NCBI GenBank assembly: GCA_016929795.1
Contig: JAFGIA010000039.1
Location: 1 to 27,448 of the forward strand
DNA: 27,448 nt
Reading direction: 5' to 3'
Source of the DNA: Anaerolineae bacterium
Lineage (GTDB): Bacteria > Chloroflexota > Anaerolineae > JAAYZQ01
Position numbers and translations under genes: made by a program. Shown here piece by piece: positions 2,434-10,807 of this stretch; position 1 is the stretch's first letter; every line of letters starts with the position of its first letter. The notes below the pieces were generated by a model, which made no database searches, was not told the origin of the DNA, and worked only from the letters and a program-made list of their open reading frames with translations.

Positions 2434-3210
2434 CTACTGCACCCGCTGCCCCACGATCACCAGGTTGCCATAGTGCTCCCGGTCGTACGGCACCAGGGGC
2501 AGGCTCGTGTCTGCCAGCGCGCGAGTCAGCACCAGGCCGGCATCGTGGAACAGCCGCCGCCACTCGGGCAGAGAGTAGACGCGGATCCGCTCCGGCTCGC
2601 CCGCCGTGTTGAGCACCCCCTCGTCGTCGACGAACATGAACTCCGACACGTAGGTGCACGTCTCGGGCTCCCACCACACGGTGCGCAGGCCATAACCGCC
2701 TCCGTAATAGCTCCACGTGCGCCGCGCCGGTCGGACCACCATCTGTGCCGGATCGAACACGTCGATCAACACCCGCCCCCCGTCGCGCTTGAGCGCGCGG
2801 GCGATACGGCGCAGCACATCCTCGTTCGTCGCGTCGTCAAAGAAACCAAAGCTGCCGCTCAGCACCAATACCGCGTCGAACTCGTCCTCCTGGTCGATCG
2901 TGCGCATGTCGCCGGTCCGAAACTCGACCCCCTTCAGCCCCTGGGCTGCGGCCTGCTGCCGGGCGTATTCCACCAAACTGGGCGCGATCTCGATGCCGAC
3001 CACATCCATGCCCCGCGCTGCCAGCAGGCGCGCGTGGTCGCCGCTCCCCGACGCCAGATCGAGCACGCGGTCGCCCGGCTCCAACTCGAGCACCTCCACG
3101 ATCAGCTCCACCAGCTTCTCATCCCACTCCCGAATCCCCGCGATCTGGCTGCGATGCACCACCCGATAGTGGTACGCCCACCAGTCCCACGGGCGCTCCA
3201 CACTTTTCAT
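2434..3210 (-). CDS. Class I SAM-dependent methyltransferase
   Basis: A soluble methyltransferase of 258 residues with a Rossmann core. Motif I is VLDLASGSGDHA (about residues 49-60). The acidic residue that binds the SAM ribose is in VVGIEIAP (E74). GDMR (100-103) corresponds to the adenine-binding acidic motif, and AVLVLSGSFGFF to motif IV/post-I. The substrate cannot be told from sequence. I place the start at ATG 3210 because AGGAGGAGG lies four bases upstream; an ATG further out at 3276 would translate the inverted repeat in the gap. It is the last gene before the permease operon and follows the tandem-GNAT gene after a 70 bp gap containing a 17-bp hairpin. A second methyltransferase occurs at 6777-7415. 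Confidence 0.9.
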   Translation of the reverse strand: MKSVERPWDWWAYHYRVVHRSQIAGIREWDEKLVELIVEVLELEPGDRVLDLASGSGDHARLLAARGMDVVGIEIAPSLVEYARQQAAAQGLKGVEFRTGDMRTIDQEDEFDAVLVLSGSFGFFDDATNEDVLRRIARALKRDGGRVLIDVFDPAQMVVRPARRTWSYYGGGYGLRTVWWEPETCTYVSEFMFVDDEGVLNTAGEPERIRVYSLPEWRRLFHDAGLVLTRALADTSLPLVPYDREHYGNLVIVGQRVQ

Positions 3211-3229
3211 CGAGCCTCCTCCTGCGTGG

Positions 3230-3267
3230 TGGAAGGTTGGAAGGCTGACCAGCCTTCCAACCTTCCA
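3230..3267. repeat. Perfect inverted repeat (hairpin) made of 8-nt words
   Basis: Arms 3230-3246 and 3251-3267 are exact reverse complements of 17 bp around a four-base loop GACC. The arms are built from the repeated words TGGAAGG/CCTTCCA. It occupies the gap between the GNAT gene (ends 3281) and the methyltransferase start (3210). There is no U-tract, so it is not a textbook intrinsic terminator. It belongs to the same style as the hairpins at 18015 and 19631. Confidence 0.85.
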
Positions 3268-3280
3268 ATCTTCCACTGCC

Positions 3281-4345
3281 TTACAACGGCTTCCGATACG
3301 TCGTATAGCGCTTCACCTCACAAAAGCCCATGCTCTGGTAGAGCTGTAGCGCGCCGTTCAGGTTCTCGGCGTCCACGCCCAGCGACGCCTCAGTCATGCC
3401 CAACTCCTTGATCACCTGGAAGCTGCGCGCGATCAGCGCGCGCGCCACGCCGCGCCGCCGCCACGGGCGCCGCACGCTGATGCCTTCCGTGTAGCCACGC
3501 TGGCGCTGGTATTCCTCGTTCTCAGCCGCGTCGATAAAGTTCTGCACCATGCCTGCCACCTCGTCCCCTGCCCACGCCACCTGCCACAGCGCCGGGTTGT
3601 AGGTCGGTGATTCCTGCCAGGCCAGGTGTTGCTCCCACGACCACTCATCTTCCGAAAAGCCCCAGTGGTCGCGGAACGCCTCGCGCGAAGCCTCCCAGAT
3701 CTGGCGCACCTGCTCAGGCTGCACCGGGCGCACTTCCAGCCCCTCGGGCAGCGGGTAGCGGGCCACATACTCGTCGGTCACATCCTCCAGGCTGGCGCGC
3801 ACCATGCTCAGACCCCAGCGCACCGGCTCATACTGCTCGCCTCGCAGCAGGGTATCCCAGTGTGTTTCACTGTCGGCGGCACCCGCCTGGAAAAAACGCT
3901 CGCCGCCTTCCGGCTGTTCCGCCGCGATTTCGCGTAGCCGCCGCTCGCAACGCAGCAGCATCTCCCGCCGCAGGCCATCCTTGCGCCATTCAGGCAGCAG
4001 GTGGGCAAAGTGGCAGTAGAGGCGCTTGCCGTCGTCCTCTTCCATCCACCACACCCGCGAGTAGCCCACCGCCTGGCCGTTCACCTCGACGAAAAACATG
4101 TCCCGCTTCGGATCGCTCTTGATCAGGTGCTGATAGTTGCGCTGCACATCCTCCAGCGTCGTGCTCCACTCCACCCCGTCGGCATCCTTGGCTCCGTTGA
4201 TGATGGCCACCATGAGCGGAAAGTCGGATTCTCCGGCAAACGGGCGAAAGACAGGCAGATTCGTAGGTTCTACGGCTGGAAGGCTGAAAGCCCGCCTGGC
4301 CGGCCGGTTAGTTTTGGTTCTCGGCTTGGCTTGTGTTTGAGCCAT
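3281..4345 (-). CDS. Tandem GNAT-domain N-acetyltransferase (paralogue 1)
   Basis: A 354-residue protein with two GNAT folds in a row, about residues 28-190 and 200-354. The C-terminal domain has a clear acetyl-CoA pyrophosphate-binding motif (WRRRGVARAL, about 295-304) followed by DAENLNGALQLYQSMGF, typical of motif B. The N-terminal domain is more degenerate. Such two-domain GNATs resemble the mycothiol synthase architecture, but nothing here shows that substrate; antibiotic, amine or peptide acetylation is equally possible. The start is ATG 4345 with AAGGAG nine bases upstream. The upstream in-frame extension is low-complexity and rejected. It is a clear paralogue of 5740-6738: both have EAFxDHWG in the middle and LGxDAxNLxGA near the end. 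Confidence 0.88.
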   Translation of the reverse strand: MAQTQAKPRTKTNRPARRAFSLPAVEPTNLPVFRPFAGESDFPLMVAIINGAKDADGVEWSTTLEDVQRNYQHLIKSDPKRDMFFVEVNGQAVGYSRVWWMEEDDGKRLYCHFAHLLPEWRKDGLRREMLLRCERRLREIAAEQPEGGERFFQAGAADSETHWDTLLRGEQYEPVRWGLSMVRASLEDVTDEYVARYPLPEGLEVRPVQPEQVRQIWEASREAFRDHWGFSEDEWSWEQHLAWQESPTYNPALWQVAWAGDEVAGMVQNFIDAAENEEYQRQRGYTEGISVRRPWRRRGVARALIARSFQVIKELGMTEASLGVDAENLNGALQLYQSMGFCEVKRYTTYRKPL

Positions 4346-4412
4346 CTTGGATATCTCCTTGATTTTGGCGCGGCAGGTGCCCGGTCCAGGGCCTCTGCCG
4401 CGCCCTCGTCGT

Positions 4413-5447
4413 TCAGTCAACGGCTGCCAGTGCCAGCTCGACGCGCGATAGGTCGGCAGCCAGGTCCTCAGGATCCATCTCCCCCATGTAGCGGCGCCAC
4501 ATCCTGTCGGCGATGGTGCGCGCGTTGGGCCGCAGGCCCTGCGCCCGAAAATAGTCGCATACGCGCTCGATGTCGCGCTCCAGGATAAGGCGCGCCTTGG
4601 GGTTGCCGCGCAGGTTCACCACCTGCGGAAAGTCGATGATCGTCATCTCCCCCGGTGGGCCGTTCGGCGCCCAGTAGAGAATGTTGTACGCCGAAAGATC
4701 GCCGTGGACCAAGTCTTGCTGCAGCAGCAGGTGCACGTTGTGCAACACTCGCCGCAGCAGCCGGTCCGCCTCCTCCAGATCGAGCGACACCGTGTTCATC
4801 GTCGGCGCCGGGCTGCCCACCTCGCCATGATAAGTCATCAGCACCGCATTGTCCGCTGCGTGGATCGGACGCGGCACGTCGCCGCCTGCAGTGTGCAGCC
4901 GCTTCATCGCATTGAACTCGTGCATCAGCCACGACGTATGCCCGGCCTGCATGCCGAACGCGGTGTGGTGTCGCATGGCGCGCTCGATATGGCCCGTTTC
5001 GCGCCCTGCCGGATTGCCGTCCGCCCCCAGGATCTCCCGCCCCTGTCGGTACAGCGCGTCATTGCGCAGATTGCGGAACATGCGCGGGCGGTACACCTTG
5101 GCTGCCAACAGGTCGTAACCTGTCGCCGGGTGCGCCCTGCATACATACACGCTCGCTTCCTTGCCCCCTTTTACCAGGGCCAGCACATCACTGATCAGCC
5201 CCTCGTCGTAAAAGGTATAGAGCGACTGCAACAGCCACCCTGACTCGTACTTGGACGGCTTGTACGTCGTCTCAAAGCCGAGTTCCACGTCAGTCAGGTC
5301 GTCGGTCAGCGCGGCCAGGATCTCGTCCCGCGTCTTTTTCGGCTTGTGGTCCGCTTTGCGTCGCCACCGCGTCGCCACCGCCACGTGCGGGTCGAACATC
5401 TCTTCATACTGCTCATATTCGTCCAGGTAGACGTCGTCTCCAAACAC
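4413..5447 (-). CDS. RIO-type serine/threonine protein kinase
   Basis: An atypical protein kinase of the RIO family, about 344 residues. Numbered from the GTG start, it shows the glycine-rich ATP loop VKGGKEASVY (92-101), the likely ATP-binding lysine in AAKVYR (117), the catalytic segment LVHGDLSAYNILYW (246-259; Asp 250, Asn 255) and the metal-binding motif TIIDFPQ (269-274). These match RIO1, whose archaeal and eukaryotic members act in ribosome maturation. In bacteria the role is unsettled, and the fold is related to aminoglycoside phosphotransferases. The start is uncertain: I prefer GTG 5447, ten bases after AAGGAG; an in-frame TTG at 5477 would add ten residues. It sits between two tandem-GNAT genes, 67 bp before the downstream one. 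Confidence 0.88.
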   Translation of the reverse strand: MFGDDVYLDEYEQYEEMFDPHVAVATRWRRKADHKPKKTRDEILAALTDDLTDVELGFETTYKPSKYESGWLLQSLYTFYDEGLISDVLALVKGGKEASVYVCRAHPATGYDLLAAKVYRPRMFRNLRNDALYRQGREILGADGNPAGRETGHIERAMRHHTAFGMQAGHTSWLMHEFNAMKRLHTAGGDVPRPIHAADNAVLMTYHGEVGSPAPTMNTVSLDLEEADRLLRRVLHNVHLLLQQDLVHGDLSAYNILYWAPNGPPGEMTIIDFPQVVNLRGNPKARLILERDIERVCDYFRAQGLRPNARTIADRMWRRYMGEMDPEDLAADLSRVELALAAVD

Positions 5448-5598
5448 TGTTGGGTTTCTCCTTGCGTTGTCTAACAACGCCCTGTCTTGCCATAGCCCTA
5501 TTTCCAGGGCCGTCCTTCACTCGTCTGTCGCCCACGTTCACACCCCCGCCTGCCGGCCGGAGCCCCTTCTTCTCAGGTGCAAGTCTATAGACTGACAT
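5413..5598 (-). CDS. Possible small basic protein or upstream ORF before the RIO kinase
   Basis: A 61-codon ORF starting at ATG 5598 with an excellent ribosome site (AAAGGAGGG, five bases before ATG), better than that of the kinase. It overlaps the kinase start in another frame, ending at 5413. The product (MSVYRLAPEKKG to RRRLPGRI) is rich in Arg, Gly and Lys, with no recognisable domain or membrane segment. It may be a real small protein, a coupling ORF that feeds ribosomes to the weakly initiated kinase, or chance. A 12-bp palindrome AGTCTATAGACT (5582-5593) overlaps its first codons. Confidence 0.35.
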   Translation of the reverse strand: MSVYRLAPEKKGLRPAGGGVNVGDRRVKDGPGNRAMARQGVVRQRKEKPNSVWRRRLPGRI

Positions 5599-5739: not shown

Positions 5740-6738
5740 TCATGCCCCGTTCCGCATCGTCTTCCGGTACGCCATACTCGTCTTGCGCACGCAAAAGCCG
5801 AGCCGCTCATAGATGCGCACCGCGCCTGTCAGGTTGTTCGCGTCGGCACCGAGGTGCGCCCATTCCATGCCCGCGTCGCGCAGCATGTGCAGGCTCTGCG
5901 CCAGCAGCGCCGTGCCCAGGCCCATCTTGCGATAGTCGCGCAGCACCGCCAGAGTATTCACATACCCCTCCTGCCGGCCCGTGCTGGCGATCCACTCCGG
6001 GTCGATCTTGTTCAGGCAGATGCCCGCGGCCTGGCCTGTCGCCTCTTCCTCTGCCACGAGCCACAGCTCAGGTCGAAAAGTCGGCTGTTCGATCCAGTGG
6101 GTGTACTCTTCGAATGGAAAGCCGGTATAGCCCCAGTGATCCTTGAACGCCTCATTGTCCACGCGCCACACCGTCTCAGTGTCGCGTGCGGGATCAAAGG
6201 TGCGCAGCCGGAACCCACCTGGCACGTCGACACGTGGCAGCCCGTCGTCGATGCGGCGTGCCATGTTGACAAAGTAGCGCACGCGCTCCATGCCCAGGCT
6301 CTCGAACAGCGCCTGGCGATCCTCCTCCACATCGCGTGTGCTCGCCTGCATATAAGCGTTCCCACCCTCCACCTCCGCCAGGCGCTCTTCTGCCCGGCGG
6401 TAGAGGGCCTGCATGAGCCTGCGGCCGACACCCCGTCGACGGTGATCCGGGTGCACCATGCCCCACGTGTAGAACACCTTATCCTCCGCCCCCTCCTGGC
6501 TACGGAAGAAAAAGTCCACGTATCCCAGCAGCCGGCCCACCCCATCCCCGTCCCCGCGCTCGAACGCGAGAAAGCTGTCGGTCTCGGGATAAAAGTTCGG
6601 CCACGTATACTCATGCTCCATCTCTTCAATCGTCGTCGCCCGCTCCAGCCCGTCGACGGCGTCCGCCTCATTGTTCAGGCGCACCATCGCCGCCAGGTCC
6701 TCAGGTCGATAGTTCCGTATCACCACATTTTCTGCCAT
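5740..6738 (-). CDS. Tandem GNAT-domain N-acetyltransferase (paralogue 2)
   Basis: A 332-residue protein with two GNAT domains (about 5-155 and 175-332). Both keep an acetyl-CoA loop: HPDHRRRGVGRRLMQAL (about 96-112) and DYRKMGLGTALLAQ (about 268-281). The C-terminal domain ends with ADANNLTGAVRIYERLGF. The start is ATG 6738, five bases after GGAGG; upstream extension to 6795 is unlikely. It lies 38 bp after the methyltransferase on the same strand, so the two probably share a transcript. Sequence and architecture match the tandem GNAT at 3281-4345, and the pair flank the RIO-like kinase. The acceptor substrate is unknown; small amines, aminoglycosides or peptide N-termini are all possible. 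Confidence 0.9.
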   Translation of the reverse strand: MAENVVIRNYRPEDLAAMVRLNNEADAVDGLERATTIEEMEHEYTWPNFYPETDSFLAFERGDGDGVGRLLGYVDFFFRSQEGAEDKVFYTWGMVHPDHRRRGVGRRLMQALYRRAEERLAEVEGGNAYMQASTRDVEEDRQALFESLGMERVRYFVNMARRIDDGLPRVDVPGGFRLRTFDPARDTETVWRVDNEAFKDHWGYTGFPFEEYTHWIEQPTFRPELWLVAEEEATGQAAGICLNKIDPEWIASTGRQEGYVNTLAVLRDYRKMGLGTALLAQSLHMLRDAGMEWAHLGADANNLTGAVRIYERLGFCVRKTSMAYRKTMRNGA

Positions 6739-6776
6739 TATGCCCTCCAGTACTCCCAGCCGTTTGACACGGTGCT

Positions 6777-7415
6777 TCATCCCTTTTCTCCCCATACCAC
6801 CCAGTTGATGTCTGTCAGTTGCTCTGCCTCAAAGCTCAGGCCGGCGGCGTGGAACATCGGCGCCAGCGTGTCGAGGGTGGCAAAGTACTCTTCCTCCAGC
6901 TCGTCAGGCCATTGTTCGAGCGCCGCGTCCAGCGCAGCCCTATGGCGAAACATCGGGTCGCCGATGGCGAGGCGGCCACCATCCTTGAGCACGCGCGCCA
7001 TCTCGCGCACGGCGGCGGGCTTGTGGCGCTCGTGGATGTGGTGAAAGGCCTGCGTGCTGGCCACAGCATTGAACGAGCGATCCGGGTACGGGATCTCGAG
7101 AAAGGGTGCCTCTGCCACCTCAAAGACCCTCACCCCCCTGCCATTGCCGTCTGCCTTGCGTAGCGCCGCCTCGATCATGGCCGGCGACGGGTCGAGGCCC
7201 ACGACGTGGCAGCCACGACCGTGCGCCAAGCGGCGGGCGAGCTCACCTGTGCCTGTGCCAATGTCCAAGACCCTGTCGCCAGCGCGCACCCTGCAGCGCA
7301 CCACGACCAGGTCGAGCAGATCGTGATAGCGAGCATAGTAGAGACCCCGCTCCTCAGTGACCAAGGTGTCATATCTCGATGCCTGTGATTCGTTCCACGT
7401 CCAAGTTTTTTCCAT
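6777..7415 (-). CDS. Class I SAM-dependent methyltransferase (UbiE/Methyltransf_11 type)
   Basis: A 212-residue cytoplasmic methyltransferase. Motif I is VLDIGTGTGELA (about 49-60) and the acidic ribose-binding residue is the Asp of VVGLDPSP. The segment FNAVASTQAFHHI is motif IV-like, followed by the common MARVLKDGGRLAIGDP. The closest style is the broad UbiE/MerR-linked group acting on small molecules, but the substrate cannot be read. Its ATG overlaps the TAA of the MFS gene by one base (TAATG), which implies translational coupling to that exporter. An exporter coupled to a methyltransferase, followed by an acetyltransferase, suggests handling of a toxic small molecule. Confidence 0.9.
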   Translation of the reverse strand: MEKTWTWNESQASRYDTLVTEERGLYYARYHDLLDLVVVRCRVRAGDRVLDIGTGTGELARRLAHGRGCHVVGLDPSPAMIEAALRKADGNGRGVRVFEVAEAPFLEIPYPDRSFNAVASTQAFHHIHERHKPAAVREMARVLKDGGRLAIGDPMFRHRAALDAALEQWPDELEEEYFATLDTLAPMFHAAGLSFEAEQLTDINWVVWGEKG

Positions 7416-8713
7416 TACCCCGCCCCCTGTGTCAGATCCGGAACACCCTTCCGTTTCAGAAAGGCAGCCCGACGCTGCTCGTCGTCAATGCGCTGAAAGA
7501 ATCTCTTTTCCAGCACCGACGCGACGATGTAAAGTGTGCACGTAATAACAAAGATCGGTTGAAAGCCGATATCCGGATGCTCTTGCATATAACCGCTCAC
7601 GTACGGGCCGATCGTCCAGCCGATATTCCAGCTCATGCCCATCAGCCCACTCACCGTCGCCCGCTCGCGCTCTGTGAACTGCTGCATCGCAAACGCGCTA
7701 TAGAGCGGATTGCCCATGTTCATCAACGCCGCCCGCGCCCAGAACGCGCCGGCCGACACCCAGAACATCCCCGAAAAGCCGATCAGCAACAGGAACGGGA
7801 TAGACGTCAACTGGGTGAACACCAGCGACCGGATCCGCCCCCAGCGCCCCGCGAGTGCCGGCGATGCCAGCGTCGCCACCCCCGTCACCACCGACGACAC
7901 GGCAAAGATCGTGCCCAGCACCTTGTCCGAGATGGGGTAGGTCTCTTTGAAAAAGAGGTTCATGTATGGGATCAGGATCGCTGCCCCCATCGAGATGACA
8001 ATATTGGGCAAAAAGATACGCCATGCCATGCGCAGGTTGTTAAGGTTTCGCCACGGCAGCATCGACCTCACGGCTGCATCCGCCGCCGGTCGCTTCTCTT
8101 CGATGAAAAAGATCGGCACGATGGCCGCTGCCGCCAGCAACATCGCCACCGCCAGCGTGCCTGCATACGCTGTCGCACTCTCCACGTCGACGGATAGCAC
8201 ACTCCCGAACAGGGTCGGGAGCCAGCCGCCGACGAACGTCCCCGCAAACCCAACCAGCGTTTGCAGCCCAAAGCTGGCGCTAAAGAGCGCGTCCCGCTCC
8301 TCCTCTGTCGAGTTTTCCATCATGAATGGCGCGTTCGTCACCATGCGCAGCGACTGCGACACACCAAAAGTGATCATCGACAGGCGCAACCACCACTCGC
8401 CCGGTGCCAGCACGATGCCCAGGAAGGCGAGCGCCCAGCCGATGCCCGAGAGATAGAGCGCCTGTTTTCGCCCGATGCGATCCACCAACACCCCTGCCGG
8501 CAGCGCACTGAACAGCGCGATCAGATTCGGCATCGACTGCAGCTCTCCCAAAAAACTGCGTGGGTACCCTCTCGCGTCGACGTACAAGTTAAAGATGAGC
8601 GAGTAGATGCTAAAGCTCAGCCCGGTGATGATTGTCGCCACCAGCAGGTAGCGCGCGTTCGGGCTAAAGCTCCGCAGGCGTTGCCAGTAGGCGCGAATCG
8701 CATCGATAATCAT
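7415..8713 (-). CDS. MFS transporter (drug:H+ antiporter style)
   Basis: A 432-residue major facilitator protein with about 12 predicted membrane helices. After a short cytoplasmic N-terminus, helix 1 starts near residue 22. The loop between helices 2 and 3 holds the MFS motif A (PAGVLVDRIGRKQAL). A longer central loop (FFIEEKRPA) separates the two six-helix halves. Motif A and the overall length fit a proton-coupled exporter; the substrate is unknown. The start is ATG 8713 with a purine-rich AAAAGAG upstream. It lies 109 bp after the ABC-2 permease and overlaps the following methyltransferase by one base. Confidence 0.9.
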   Translation of the reverse strand: MIIDAIRAYWQRLRSFSPNARYLLVATIITGLSFSIYSLIFNLYVDARGYPRSFLGELQSMPNLIALFSALPAGVLVDRIGRKQALYLSGIGWALAFLGIVLAPGEWWLRLSMITFGVSQSLRMVTNAPFMMENSTEEERDALFSASFGLQTLVGFAGTFVGGWLPTLFGSVLSVDVESATAYAGTLAVAMLLAAAAIVPIFFIEEKRPAADAAVRSMLPWRNLNNLRMAWRIFLPNIVISMGAAILIPYMNLFFKETYPISDKVLGTIFAVSSVVTGVATLASPALAGRWGRIRSLVFTQLTSIPFLLLIGFSGMFWVSAGAFWARAALMNMGNPLYSAFAMQQFTERERATVSGLMGMSWNIGWTIGPYVSGYMQEHPDIGFQPIFVITCTLYIVASVLEKRFFQRIDDEQRRAAFLKRKGVPDLTQGAG

Positions 8714-8822: not shown

Positions 8823-9647
8823 CTATCCGCTGCGCTTCAGCTTCCCCGTACGCTTGGCATACTTTTCGGCTTGCCCAAAAATCAACACCCCCACTGGGAT
8901 GAAAACAACTCCCATCACCAGCAGCGGCCACACATAAGGCAGCAGCTCCTCAGTCACCCGCCCTTCCAGCAGGCCGGCGCGCACGCCTTCCAGTACGTAG
9001 GTCGCAGGCGACAGCTTGGCTGCCATTTGCATCCACCCCGGCAGCACGCTGATCGGATAGTACACGCCCGACACCAGCAGCAGCGTCGCCTGGATCACGT
9101 GCGTCATCTGCGCCCCCCGCTCGGGAAAGAGGAGCGGCATGATCGATGCCACGATCCCCAGTCCGATGAACGACAGGCTCCCCGCCAGCAGCACCAGCAG
9201 GCTTCCACCCAGGTTCGCCCCTCCCAGATCGAGCCTGAAAAAGAGCGCCACCACGGCGAGGATGGCAGCCGTGTGCAGCAGCCCGTACACCAGCGAAAAC
9301 GCCGTCTGTCCCAGCATGTGCGTGATGCGCGGCACGGGTGCCATAAACGTGTACTCGATTGTCCCTTCCCAGCGCTCCCACGCGATCACCTCACTGATCG
9401 CGTCAAACACGATCGACAAAAAGTGCCAGATCAGCGTCCCTGCCAGCAGGAACATGATCAGGTAGTCGGTGTCGACCGCCTGTCCGCTGATCGCTTCCAT
9501 CCCGGCACCGATGAAGGTGATGGCCAGTGCGTTGGCAATGCTGTATGCCAGCCACACCACTTCCCATCCCCAGTAGCGCCGTACCAGGTTAAAGTTCCGC
9601 TCGATAAATCCGTACGATGCTCGCATCTGGGCTACCAACTGGGCCAT
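8823..9647 (-). CDS. ABC-2 type exporter permease
   Basis: A 274-residue integral membrane protein of the ABC-2 family (DrrB/NodJ/antibiotic and polysaccharide exporters), with six predicted helices and the conserved C-terminal segment GVYYPISVLPGWMQ...LSPATYVLEGVRAGLL, which is diagnostic. The start is ATG 9647, six bases after AAAGGAGG. The expected partner ATPase is not adjacent on either side, which is unusual because these genes nearly always come as ATPase-permease pairs. It may use an ATPase encoded elsewhere. The 5' region holds a strong promoter, a 29-codon ORF and two intrinsic terminators (9701-9964), so its expression probably depends on read-through. Confidence 0.92.
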   Translation of the reverse strand: MAQLVAQMRASYGFIERNFNLVRRYWGWEVVWLAYSIANALAITFIGAGMEAISGQAVDTDYLIMFLLAGTLIWHFLSIVFDAISEVIAWERWEGTIEYTFMAPVPRITHMLGQTAFSLVYGLLHTAAILAVVALFFRLDLGGANLGGSLLVLLAGSLSFIGLGIVASIMPLLFPERGAQMTHVIQATLLLVSGVYYPISVLPGWMQMAAKLSPATYVLEGVRAGLLEGRVTEELLPYVWPLLVMGVVFIPVGVLIFGQAEKYAKRTGKLKRSG

Positions 9648-9664
9648 CGTCTTCCTCCTTTCCA

Positions 9665-9678
9665 CCTGCCACCGCAGG
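9665..9678 (-). other. Small hairpin just before the ABC-2 permease ribosome site
   Basis: The minus strand has CCTGC-GGTG-GCAGG, a five-pair stem with a four-base loop, ending directly before the AAAGGAGG ribosome site. It could modulate access to the site or be incidental. Confidence 0.4.
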
Positions 9679-9700
9679 AGTCATACCCAAACATACACAC

Positions 9701-9732
9701 AAAAAAGCCGTGAGATCCATCCCCCACGGCTT
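9701..9732 (-). terminator. Intrinsic terminator 2 upstream of the ABC-2 permease
   Basis: On the minus strand an eight-pair stem (AAGCCGTG at one arm, CACGGCTT at the other; 9705-9712 with 9725-9732) closes a 12-base loop and is followed by a run of six T counting the stem end. The loop is G-rich and repeats the GCCGTGGGG word of terminator 1. Confidence 0.7.
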
Positions 9733-9769
9733 ACTCTACACCTCGCCCGGCAAGGTTGCCCGGACAAAG

Positions 9770-9801
9770 AAAAAGGCCGTGGGGTGTAGTGCCCCACGGC
9801 C
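9770..9801 (-). terminator. Strong intrinsic terminator 1 after the 29-codon ORF
   Basis: On the minus strand a perfect ten-pair GC-rich stem (GGCCGTGGGG with CCCCACGGCC; plus coordinates 9775-9784 and 9792-9801) closes a seven-base loop CACTACA and is followed at once by five T. It lies 14 bp after the stop codon of the 29-codon ORF. It is the clearest rho-independent terminator in the window. Confidence 0.9.
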
Positions 9802-9815
9802 TCAGTTAACAATAA

Positions 9816-9905
9816 CTAAAGGCGTATGGGCGCACTACGAGTGCACTGACCGGCGGCATCGCTGCCGACCTTCTTCTTGCGATAAACGCACGGATCGTAG
9901 AGCAT
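9816..9905 (-). CDS. 29-codon ORF, candidate regulatory leader peptide or small protein
   Basis: The peptide begins MLYDPCVYRKKKVG and ends CTRSAPIRL, followed by TAG at 9818-9816. It has two cysteines, a run of three lysines and several arginines. GGAGG (9917-9913) lies seven bases before this ATG, which is ideal. An ATG four bases earlier (9909) gives a 24-codon ORF in another frame but only three bases from the ribosome site. A near-perfect promoter lies just upstream and a strong terminator just downstream, so this is a complete mini-transcription unit. The next gene is the ABC-2 exporter permease, whose own promoter is not evident. Either the peptide is a leader that senses stalled ribosomes, or it is an independent small gene. 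I recognise no homologue. Confidence 0.5.
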   Translation of the reverse strand: MLYDPCVYRKKKVGSDAAGQCTRSAPIRL

Positions 9906-9935
9906 CCATTTGCCTCCTTTCAAAAGATTGGCATC

Positions 9936-9964
9936 ATTCTAGACGAGTTCGGAAGAAATGTCAA
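9936..9964 (-). promoter_or_regulatory. Near-consensus sigma-70 promoter of the leader/ABC-2 unit
   Basis: The minus strand has a perfect TTGACA (9964-9959), a 17-nt spacer and TAGAAT (9941-9936). Transcription should start near 9929, leaving a 5' leader of about 25 nt before the 29-codon ORF. This is the best promoter in the window. Confidence 0.85.
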
Positions 9965-9997: not shown

Positions 9998-10807
9998 TCA
10001 CGGCCCAAAGCGCAACAGCACCACCAGCCCCAACAGCGCCACCACGGCATACTCGACCAGTACCCGGCGCGTCAGGCGTCCCTGAAGCTGCTGGTTCGCC
10101 AGGCCCGTGGCCGCATAAAAACCGAGCAGCAGGATCAGGCCGCCGGTGATGCCTGAAATGCGCCAGTAGTTCATGGCCCATACAATCTCACCCGTACACA
10201 GCCCGGCGATCGCCGCATACAATGCTGTGCGCGAAAAACTGCGCCCTGCACTGCGCAGGAACTCGAGCGCCAGCAGCGTGCCGATCAGTGTCACCCCCGT
10301 TGCCGAGATCAGGCTGCGCGCCTTGGCCGAATAGATGAGCACGAACACGATCGCTGCCAGCAGGTAGGCCCAGGCGTTGAGACTCACGCGCGCCACCAGG
10401 TAGCGTGGGTTTGCCGGATCCACAGTATAGTACTCGGCGCTGATCACCAGGATCAGGATCAGGCCAGTGACGACATACCCGATCAATTGGTAGAGACGCG
10501 ACTCTGCCTCGGGCAGCAGCACCGTCGCCAGCAGCACCGTCAACGCCGGTAGCGTCCACGTCACAAAGCTGTAGCGCGCCTCGATCCGGCGCGCCGTGGG
10601 GTGCGAGCGCACGATCGCGTCGGTGCCTGTGCACGTGATGCCCACCAGCAGCATCGCCATCAGCGCCGTTTGCGAGATGCGCACGGTCAGCGGCGAGCCG
10701 AGCACCGTCAGGCTGTAGGTCCACGCCGGGATCTGTAGAAACGCGGCCAGGATCAGCCCCAGCACCACCAGCGCCGCGACGACACTGGCACGGTCACGAT
10801 AGAGCAT
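9998..10807 (-). CDS. Polytopic membrane protein of unknown function
   Basis: A 269-residue protein, almost all hydrophobic, with about eight predicted membrane helices (first at about residues 8-28, last at about 247-266). I see no catalytic motif, and no confident family; DUF5656-like membrane proteins are one possibility that I cannot verify. The start is ATG 10807; GGAGG lies 11 bases upstream, slightly far. It is divergently oriented from the histidine kinase gene, with a 209-bp shared gap. It ends 34 bp before the strong leader promoter on the same strand, so it is probably a separate transcription unit. Confidence 0.8.
   Translation of the reverse strand: MLYRDRASVVAALVVLGLILAAFLQIPAWTYSLTVLGSPLTVRISQTALMAMLLVGITCTGTDAIVRSHPTARRIEARYSFVTWTLPALTVLLATVLLPEAESRLYQLIGYVVTGLILILVISAEYYTVDPANPRYLVARVSLNAWAYLLAAIVFVLIYSAKARSLISATGVTLIGTLLALEFLRSAGRSFSRTALYAAIAGLCTGEIVWAMNYWRISGITGGLILLLGFYAATGLANQQLQGRLTRRVLVEYAVVALLGLVVLLRFGP

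Follow-up and report, generated by a model that had tools for sequence, protein, structure and literature searches.

In the attenuators of the trp, his and ilv operons, the position of the ribosome picks either a terminator or an antiterminator, and the same principle is proposed here for a leader found in a 27,448-nt stretch of DNA (contig JAFGIA010000039.1 of assembly GCA_016929795.1), called the window below, from an Anaerolineae bacterium of the phylum Chloroflexota. The leader lies upstream of an ABC-2 permease gene. In contrast to the trp, his and ilv leaders, it has no shared codon run, and no biosynthetic operon was seen behind it. The ermK-type leader, which combines a leader peptide with tandem terminators before a resistance gene, resembles the Chloroflexota leader in this arrangement but differs from it in phylum and in genes.

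By analogy, the nearest known system in its working is the bmrB leader of the bmrCD genes of Bacillus subtilis, yet it is built differently. It likewise has a translated leader open reading frame (ORF), an intrinsic terminator, an antiterminator and an ABC exporter downstream (PMC4191407); in the published model, slow ribosomes allow the antiterminator to form. Read-through there is induced by lincomycin, and expression falls when the leader is not translated. The bmrB terminator lies inside the 53-residue ORF, and an anti-antiterminator is predicted in the same source. In the Chloroflexota leader, by contrast, the short ORF stops before the terminator, the codons of its Arg-Ser-Ala-Pro (R-S-A-P) ending appear to be the antiterminator strand, a second terminator with a similar stem often follows, and no conserved anti-antiterminator was found. 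The RAPP arrest peptides share the short ORF and an Arg-Ala-Pro-like end near the stop codon (PMC12992588); such peptides are also the subject of a second report (PMC10951233). The Chloroflexota motif is followed mostly by V, I or A and is not RxPP, its codons appear to be constrained as RNA, and the genes behind it encode exporters and acetyltransferases, whereas RAPP peptides are found with protein-localisation genes (PMC12992588).

In the open-licence literature, the matches listed for leader peptides in Chloroflexi, Chloroflexota or Anaerolineae described no such leaders, and those listed for an R-S-A-P-type motif or a tandem-terminator family held nothing on them; a survey of leader genes calls its own Chloroflexi data insignificant (PMC4833913). 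We report here that the leader belongs to a conserved Chloroflexota family that probably works as a ribosome-sensing transcription attenuator, in which completion of a mini-ORF would lead to termination, while an earlier hold-up of the ribosome would let the operon be read.

Results

The leader is on the minus strand, as are all the window features given below. It begins with a promoter of the form TTGACA-17-TAGAAT (9964-9936, 11 of 12 consensus letters), with TTGACA at 9964-9959, a 17-nt spacer, and TAGAAT at 9941-9936. The ribosome site, AAAGGAGG (9920-9913), places GGAGG 7 nt from the ATG at 9905, and the 29-codon ORF, MLYDPCVYRKKKVGSDAAGQCTRSAPIRL (9905-9816), ends with R-S-A-P-I-R-L and the stop codon TAG at 9816. 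There is another ATG at 9909, in a different frame of 24 codons, merely 3 nt from GGAGG. Terminator 1 (9803-9773; 12 pairs, 9 of them GC), with a U-run behind it, and terminator 2 (9732-9705) follow, and then the ribosome site (9661-9654) and the ATG (9647) of the ABC-2 permease gene. The initial annotation had described this arrangement, and its parts were confirmed. It had also seen no good promoter between terminator 2 and the permease gene; at 9647-9705 there is indeed no promoter-like site, the best having 7 of 12 consensus letters. The surrounding 1.6-kb region contains three promoter-like sites, compared with 0.4 in shuffled sequences, and a second, weaker one (9 of 12 letters) is inside the leader at 9923-9894. 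The parts in the window are beyond chance, because the same set recurs in relatives.

Relatives were collected from the 80 best matches to the permease (more exist), of which 70 carry titles of Chloroflexota groups and 10 others, mostly Bipolaricaulota or Acetothermia; the best, L001, has 87% identity. The same leader was first noticed upstream of the permease in L001, L002 and L015. When the loci were scanned for an ORF that ends in R/K-x-A/G/S-P near its stop codon and has a terminator behind it, 24 of the 80 and the window had the leader; two chance matches (L001 at 1074 and the minus strand of L025) were left uncounted. After L036 was dropped for a doubtful terminator 1, the 24 copies remaining (the window and 23 loci; alignment A1) were used to build a covariance model, R1. 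Their terminator 1 stem is mostly CCRYGG, and two-sided changes keep the pairing. With E below 1e-5, R1 matches 45 of the 80 permease loci as well as the window, always on the strand of the permease; 22 of the 45 are outside the model, and three matches (L006, L018 and L040) are partial. The leader ORF occurs together with transporter genes in relatives. With the lack of a promoter-like site at 9647-9705, both of the refuting conditions in the initial annotation that can be judged from sequence came out without refuting it.

Genomes of Chloroflexota and Bipolaricaulota were then scanned with R1. There are matches in at least 47 of 400 genomes of the phylum Chloroflexota (10 candidates scored per genome) and in at least 77 of 199 genomes of the class (21 candidates scored per genome), two sets that overlap, with up to four copies per genome. 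None was found in 100 genomes of Bipolaricaulota, the phylum of L038, an empty result that shows little without a known positive there, though R1 does match in Chloroflexota. The window gave no match in a scan with Rfam 15, the best in the leader having E = 0.89 and 15.8 bits, where the gathering score is 41. The 166 genome matches comprise those with E of 1e-4 or better plus one weaker (G001:C9, 5.7e-4). The 140 that were retrieved with flanks make up, with the window, a set of 141 elements; the 26 omitted were the last, weak matches from the class genomes. For most statistics, 15 elements with a core score under 9 were excluded, leaving 126. Two elements, L158 (genome G002) and L159 (G003), are second leader copies in genomes that also have the permease copy, and their motif is R-T-A-P with ACT as the second codon.

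A conserved in-frame leader ORF with a ribosome site, as bmrB-type systems have, is present in 110 of the 141 elements: in these, the R-S-A-P frame starts behind a Shine-Dalgarno sequence and stays open across the motif, compared with 22 and 22 for the other two frames. R1 covers just 15 nt upstream of the motif, so the start was not selected by the model. A promoter score of at least 9 was found upstream of the ORF in 99 of 108 elements, but in only 3 of 108 after dinucleotide-block shuffling. The ORF has 21-36 codons in 95 of 101 cases (core score at least 9), and most ORFs of the family finish with R-S-A-P-x-x-R before the stop codon. From the start of the Arg codon to the stop codon the distance is 21 nt in 62, and 18-24 nt in 95, of the 113 elements with a core score of at least 9 and a stop within 60 nt. 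With the customary ribosome footprint sizes, which were used throughout for placing ribosomes, this distance would put the S-A-P codons under a ribosome sitting at the stop codon. Terminator 1 starts a median of 21 nt after the stop codon (5th percentile 10, minimum 5; 81 elements).

The R-S-A-P codons pair with terminator 1. The initial annotation had noted that GTAGTGC (9838-9832) could pair with GCACTAC (9792-9786); the two are exactly complementary, and the pairing is longer than was described. In the predicted window fold it amounts to 22 bp, made up of GTAGTGC/GCACTAC, CCCAT/GTGGG, GCCTT/GAGGC and AGTTA/TAACT. What we call strand 2, the 5' strand of the antiterminator, is the codon series CGT AGT GCG CCC AT (9839-9826), which covaries with its own terminator 1, and its partner, strand 3, is the 5' arm and loop of terminator 1 (9803-9786). 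An inner part of the antiterminator (9823-9804) is predicted to pair GCCTT (9823-9819) with 9803-9799 and to carry the apical hairpin AGTTA/TAACT (9817-9804).

In the 126 elements, strand 2 pairs better with its own terminator 1 than with swapped ones (mean -20.9 vs -18.8 kcal/mol, percentile 0.66, p = 1e-9). The advantage is kept within the same first-gene group (percentile 0.63, p = 6e-6, 112 elements) and when each genome contributes a single element (0.67, p = 1e-7, 93 elements from 92 genomes and the window). The Arg codon can have any of the four bases in third position. Elements with G or A there pair clearly better with their own terminator (40 of 40 vs 27.8 and 6 of 9 vs 1.6), and those with C or T only slightly better (15 of 20 vs 13.9 and 41 of 57 vs 36.2). 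In several elements a changed Ser codon has its match in the terminator loop (ACT/AGT in L158, GCT/AGC in L167, and ATT/AAT in L188, L197 and L211); of the 18 variants of its second base, 12 pair with their own terminator, compared with an average of 5.1 with foreign ones. These compensatory changes support the assignment of the R-S-A-P codons, from sequence comparison, as the antiterminator 5' strand with strand 3 as its partner. We also considered whether the CCT-TCT codons pair with the ribosome site of their own leader, and rejected this (percentile 0.483).

The initial annotation had further suggested a local hairpin, GCACT-CGT-AGTGC (9844-9832), as a competitor of this pairing. The hairpin exists in the window; pairing of strand 2 with the upstream ORF, which would make such an anti-antiterminator, is not conserved in the 126 elements (mean z -0.44, sd 1.56). 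An isolated hairpin between the stop codon and terminator 1 is not enriched either (32 of 71 elements vs 29 in shuffled sequences). The leader-peptide attenuator that had been proposed is supported in its in-frame ORF, its terminator/antiterminator switch, as judged by sequence and folding, and its association with exporters, but not in its local competing hairpin.

Could the motif instead act as a peptide? In that case R-S-A-P would be a nascent-chain arrest motif like those of the RAPP peptides, and a self-dependent or drug-dependent stall would set the switch. Its residues are frequent in the 101 ORFs (R in 90, S in 89, A in 91 and P in 92), but these counts are inflated, since the elements were picked by a model and a score that use the motif letters. 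A Pro two codons upstream of the Arg, mostly outside the core pairing, is present in 66 of the 101 ORFs and also fits an arrest motif. The next residue after R-S-A-P is V in 33, I in 24, A in 15 and P in only 3, so that the motif differs from the RxPP C-terminus of RAPP- or RGPP-like peptides. Furthermore, all 126 elements have G as the third base of the Ala codon, although the residue may become Val (GTG), and Ser, Ile, Thr and Ala replace one another with the pairing mostly kept. A stall at R-S-A-P would also cover strand 2, and the operon would be off. Because RNA constraint explains most of the motif, we consider an arrest motif unlikely. The invariant third G in a codon whose residue can change suggests that the motif is conserved mainly as RNA, and a role of the peptide is also possible. 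The G is kept even in 27 elements where the predicted partner is U and A would pair better.

Classical attenuation by an amino acid, with scarce charged tRNA for Arg or Pro as the signal, would use a leader ORF, a terminator and an antiterminator as found here, and Arg and Pro codons are within the motif. However, the peptide middle is unconserved in 18 aligned leaders, chosen among motif bearers, and these have no common run of a single codon; no codon run that could report an operon end product is shared by the leader peptides inspected. No biosynthetic family was found among the classified first genes (18 of 141 elements are unclassified). This explanation is very improbable and we reject it.

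The first genes behind the 141 elements, placed in families by their likeness to representatives identified with Pfam and NCBIfam, are 43 ABC-2 ATPases, 34 ABC half-transporters, 17 small GNAT, 12 tandem GNAT and 2 other GNAT proteins, 6 ABC-2 permeases, 4 MFS proteins, 2 HAD proteins and 1 RIO1-like kinase. In 18 elements nothing was classified within 450 nt, and two are at a contig end. An exporter or other resistance-type gene downstream, as in the bmrB arrangement, is thus seen by gene family in 121 of 141 elements, each directly preceding a gene of these families. A resistance function of these genes is presumed from the family names; one MFS representative, L253, is nearest TetA(P) at 294 bits, well under the curated cut-off of 750 bits. 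The steady association with certain downstream genes bears on one more explanation, a free-standing small-protein gene with its own terminator and an unrelated operon behind it. Promoter, ribosome site, ORF and terminator do make a complete gene. Yet the peptides are alike only at their end, where the codons pair with the terminator, and the window permease has no promoter-like site in front of it; we reject this explanation as barely credible.

In folds of the window leader, no structure was better than the antiterminator as long as the 3' arm of terminator 1 (strand 4, 9784-9775) was not yet made. When a ribosome was placed on the stop codon, strand 2 was masked and terminators 1 and 2 formed, whereas with a ribosome at codon 8 the antiterminator formed in transcripts ending before strand 4 is complete. 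A terminator and a mutually exclusive antiterminator of the bmrB kind are thus present by sequence and folding. Of the 56 elements with terminator 2, 51 have 6 bp or more between strands 2 and 3 in the folds with a ribosome stalled upstream; in those with a ribosome on the stop codon, the mean length of terminator 1 is 8.5 bp.

Terminator 2 consists of strand 5 (9732-9722) and strand 6 (9715-9705) in the window. Two of the 126 elements had no terminator that could be found and were excluded; terminator 2 was found in 56 of the remaining 124 at a score of at least 18 and in 74 at any score. In three elements (L184, L208 and L278) there is no CNRYGG stem, and the terminator 1 pick is wrong or doubtful. 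A run of at least 7 complementary bp between strands 4 and 5 is present in 42 of the 56 (mean 7.8 vs 4.7 in shuffled sequences), and own pairs of these strands are better than foreign ones (percentile 0.71, p = 2.5e-5). Where CCRYGG is in both stems (37 of 56, the other 19 terminator pairs being left out of this comparison), the variable dinucleotide is the same in 32 of 37, with 18.5 expected and none of 20,000 shuffles reaching this. Terminators 1 and 2 of one element resemble each other in their loops (0.52) and flanks (0.55 and 0.51) no more than those of different elements do. Covariation confined to the stems fits selection on the stem only. Strand 4 has, from the fold and this stem-only covariation, strand 5 as its predicted alternative partner.

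Two other origins of the shared stem were considered. Tandem duplication of a terminator was rejected, since loops and flanks are no more alike than foreign ones. A favourite terminator of each genome as the stem source was rejected weakly: the exact stem pattern is rare, at just one or two places in each of six genomes (nine matches on two strands), but the pattern is a strict one. A hairpin in the gap between the terminators is not favoured, being lower than in shuffled sequences in 24 of 39 elements.

In the window transcript ending after strand 5, the best fold has the antiterminator together with a helix of strands 4 and 5, whether the RNA is free or has a ribosome at codon 8. With strand 6 added, the best folds shift to a nested form with 3-6 and 4-5 pairing, and then to the two terminators.

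In the window, the controlled operon would begin with the ABC-2 permease gene (9647-8823; PF01061, 4.6e-17). It is followed by genes for an MFS protein (7415-8713), a methyltransferase (6777-7415), a GNAT protein (5740-6795), a RIO1-like kinase (4413-5477), a second GNAT protein (3281-4420) and a second methyltransferase (2434-3276). These seven closely spaced minus-strand genes, from 9647 to 2434, are presumably one transcript. There is no ABC ATPase among them; in L004-L006 an ATPase gene seems, as judged by eye, to be directly upstream of the permease. On the other side of the leader, a gene for a DUF5656 protein (9998-10807, minus strand) has its 3' end 33 nt from the leader promoter, and no link to the leader was seen. 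Elsewhere in the family, L173, L183, L185 and L221 have five consecutive genes of GNAT acetyltransferase clusters behind the leader. RtcB-like RNA ligase genes, four members of one similarity cluster, are found later in the operons of L187, L217 and L225 (each as third gene) and L238 (as second gene), L187 having been checked with Pfam; these genes may fit with a response to damaged or blocked ribosomes.

Discussion

The position of the ribosome on the mini-ORF would set the proposed switch. A ribosome that reaches the stop codon would mask strand 2, so that terminators 1 (strands 3 and 4) and 2 (strands 5 and 6) form and the operon is off. If something such as an inhibitor blocks the ribosome within the first half of the ORF, strands 2 and 3 would pair ahead of the synthesis of strand 4; strand 4, left without its partner, would then pair with strand 5, and terminator 2 would fail as well. 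The signal is predicted to be translation inhibitors in general, with the exporter operon being read when translation is blocked. Because no conserved anti-antiterminator was found, a leader that is not translated is predicted to respond in the opposite way to bmrB, by read-through.

The attenuator reading is well supported by the sequence comparisons. Several results weigh against it. Complete terminator 1 is better than the antiterminator by 9.4 kcal/mol when the window RNA is free, and at full length both terminators are folded in each of the three ribosome states tried. We therefore infer that the switch must be kinetic. Of the Ser-codon second-base variants, 6 of 18 are unpaired with their own terminator. 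In a gapless register the covariation is weak, 0.569 for paired and 0.549 for permuted elements, although none of 500 permutations reached the former (7 of 126 elements without a CCRYGG-like anchor were left out); this is because the loop lengths vary. Relatedness among the sequences was controlled in part only, and the motif frequencies are inflated, as noted above. A drug as the signal, the inducer and the direction of the response are predictions of the model.

Does one ribosome decision act on both terminators? The shared, covarying stems of terminators 1 and 2 fit a relay, in which the antiterminator frees the 3' arm of terminator 1 and this arm captures the 5' arm of terminator 2. We tentatively suggest, from the stem comparison and the folds, a domino attenuator whose six strands share a single stem sequence; the position of the ribosome on strand 2 would pick 3-4 plus 5-6 pairing (off) or 2-3 plus 4-5 pairing (on). 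It may be a widespread sensor of blocked translation, indifferent to the drug, for efflux and acetyltransferase operons in Chloroflexota.

Other observations count against the relay. At the set score, 68 of 124 elements have no terminator 2; it is found more often with an ABC-2 ATPase as the next gene (25 of 40) than with a half-transporter, where it is rare (7 of 32). By counts that are rough, owing to wrong or doubtful terminator 1 picks in some elements (L158 and L159), the 4-5 helix is absent from 24 of 56 elements when the ribosome is stalled, and 10 of 56 have it although the ribosome sits on the stop codon. The exact stem pattern used in the genome search was at or beside the element in three of the six genomes and missed the element's own terminators in the other three. 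The frequent absence of a strong terminator 2 and of a predicted 4-5 helix would also suit a switch at terminator 1 only, with terminator 2 as a plain back-up or a local duplicate outside any relay. Such a simpler switch is a serious alternative, which we nevertheless think somewhat improbable: it does not account for the stem-only covariation between terminators 1 and 2, and an uncontrolled terminator 2 would keep the operon off in the on state.

The initial annotation did not contain the family in Chloroflexota, the further genes that stand behind its leaders, the R-S-A-P ending or the coupling between the two terminators. As judged from sequence, the leader is probably a new form of ribosome-mediated attenuation, frequent in one phylum and perhaps including a two-terminator relay. 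The relay, if it is real, would be a simple route by which one ribosome decision removes two terminators. If the attenuator reading is true, a mostly uncultured phylum has a large set of translation-responsive operons, found from sequence alone, and the leader points to which unnamed exporters and acetyltransferases of Chloroflexota would answer to translation inhibitors in nature.

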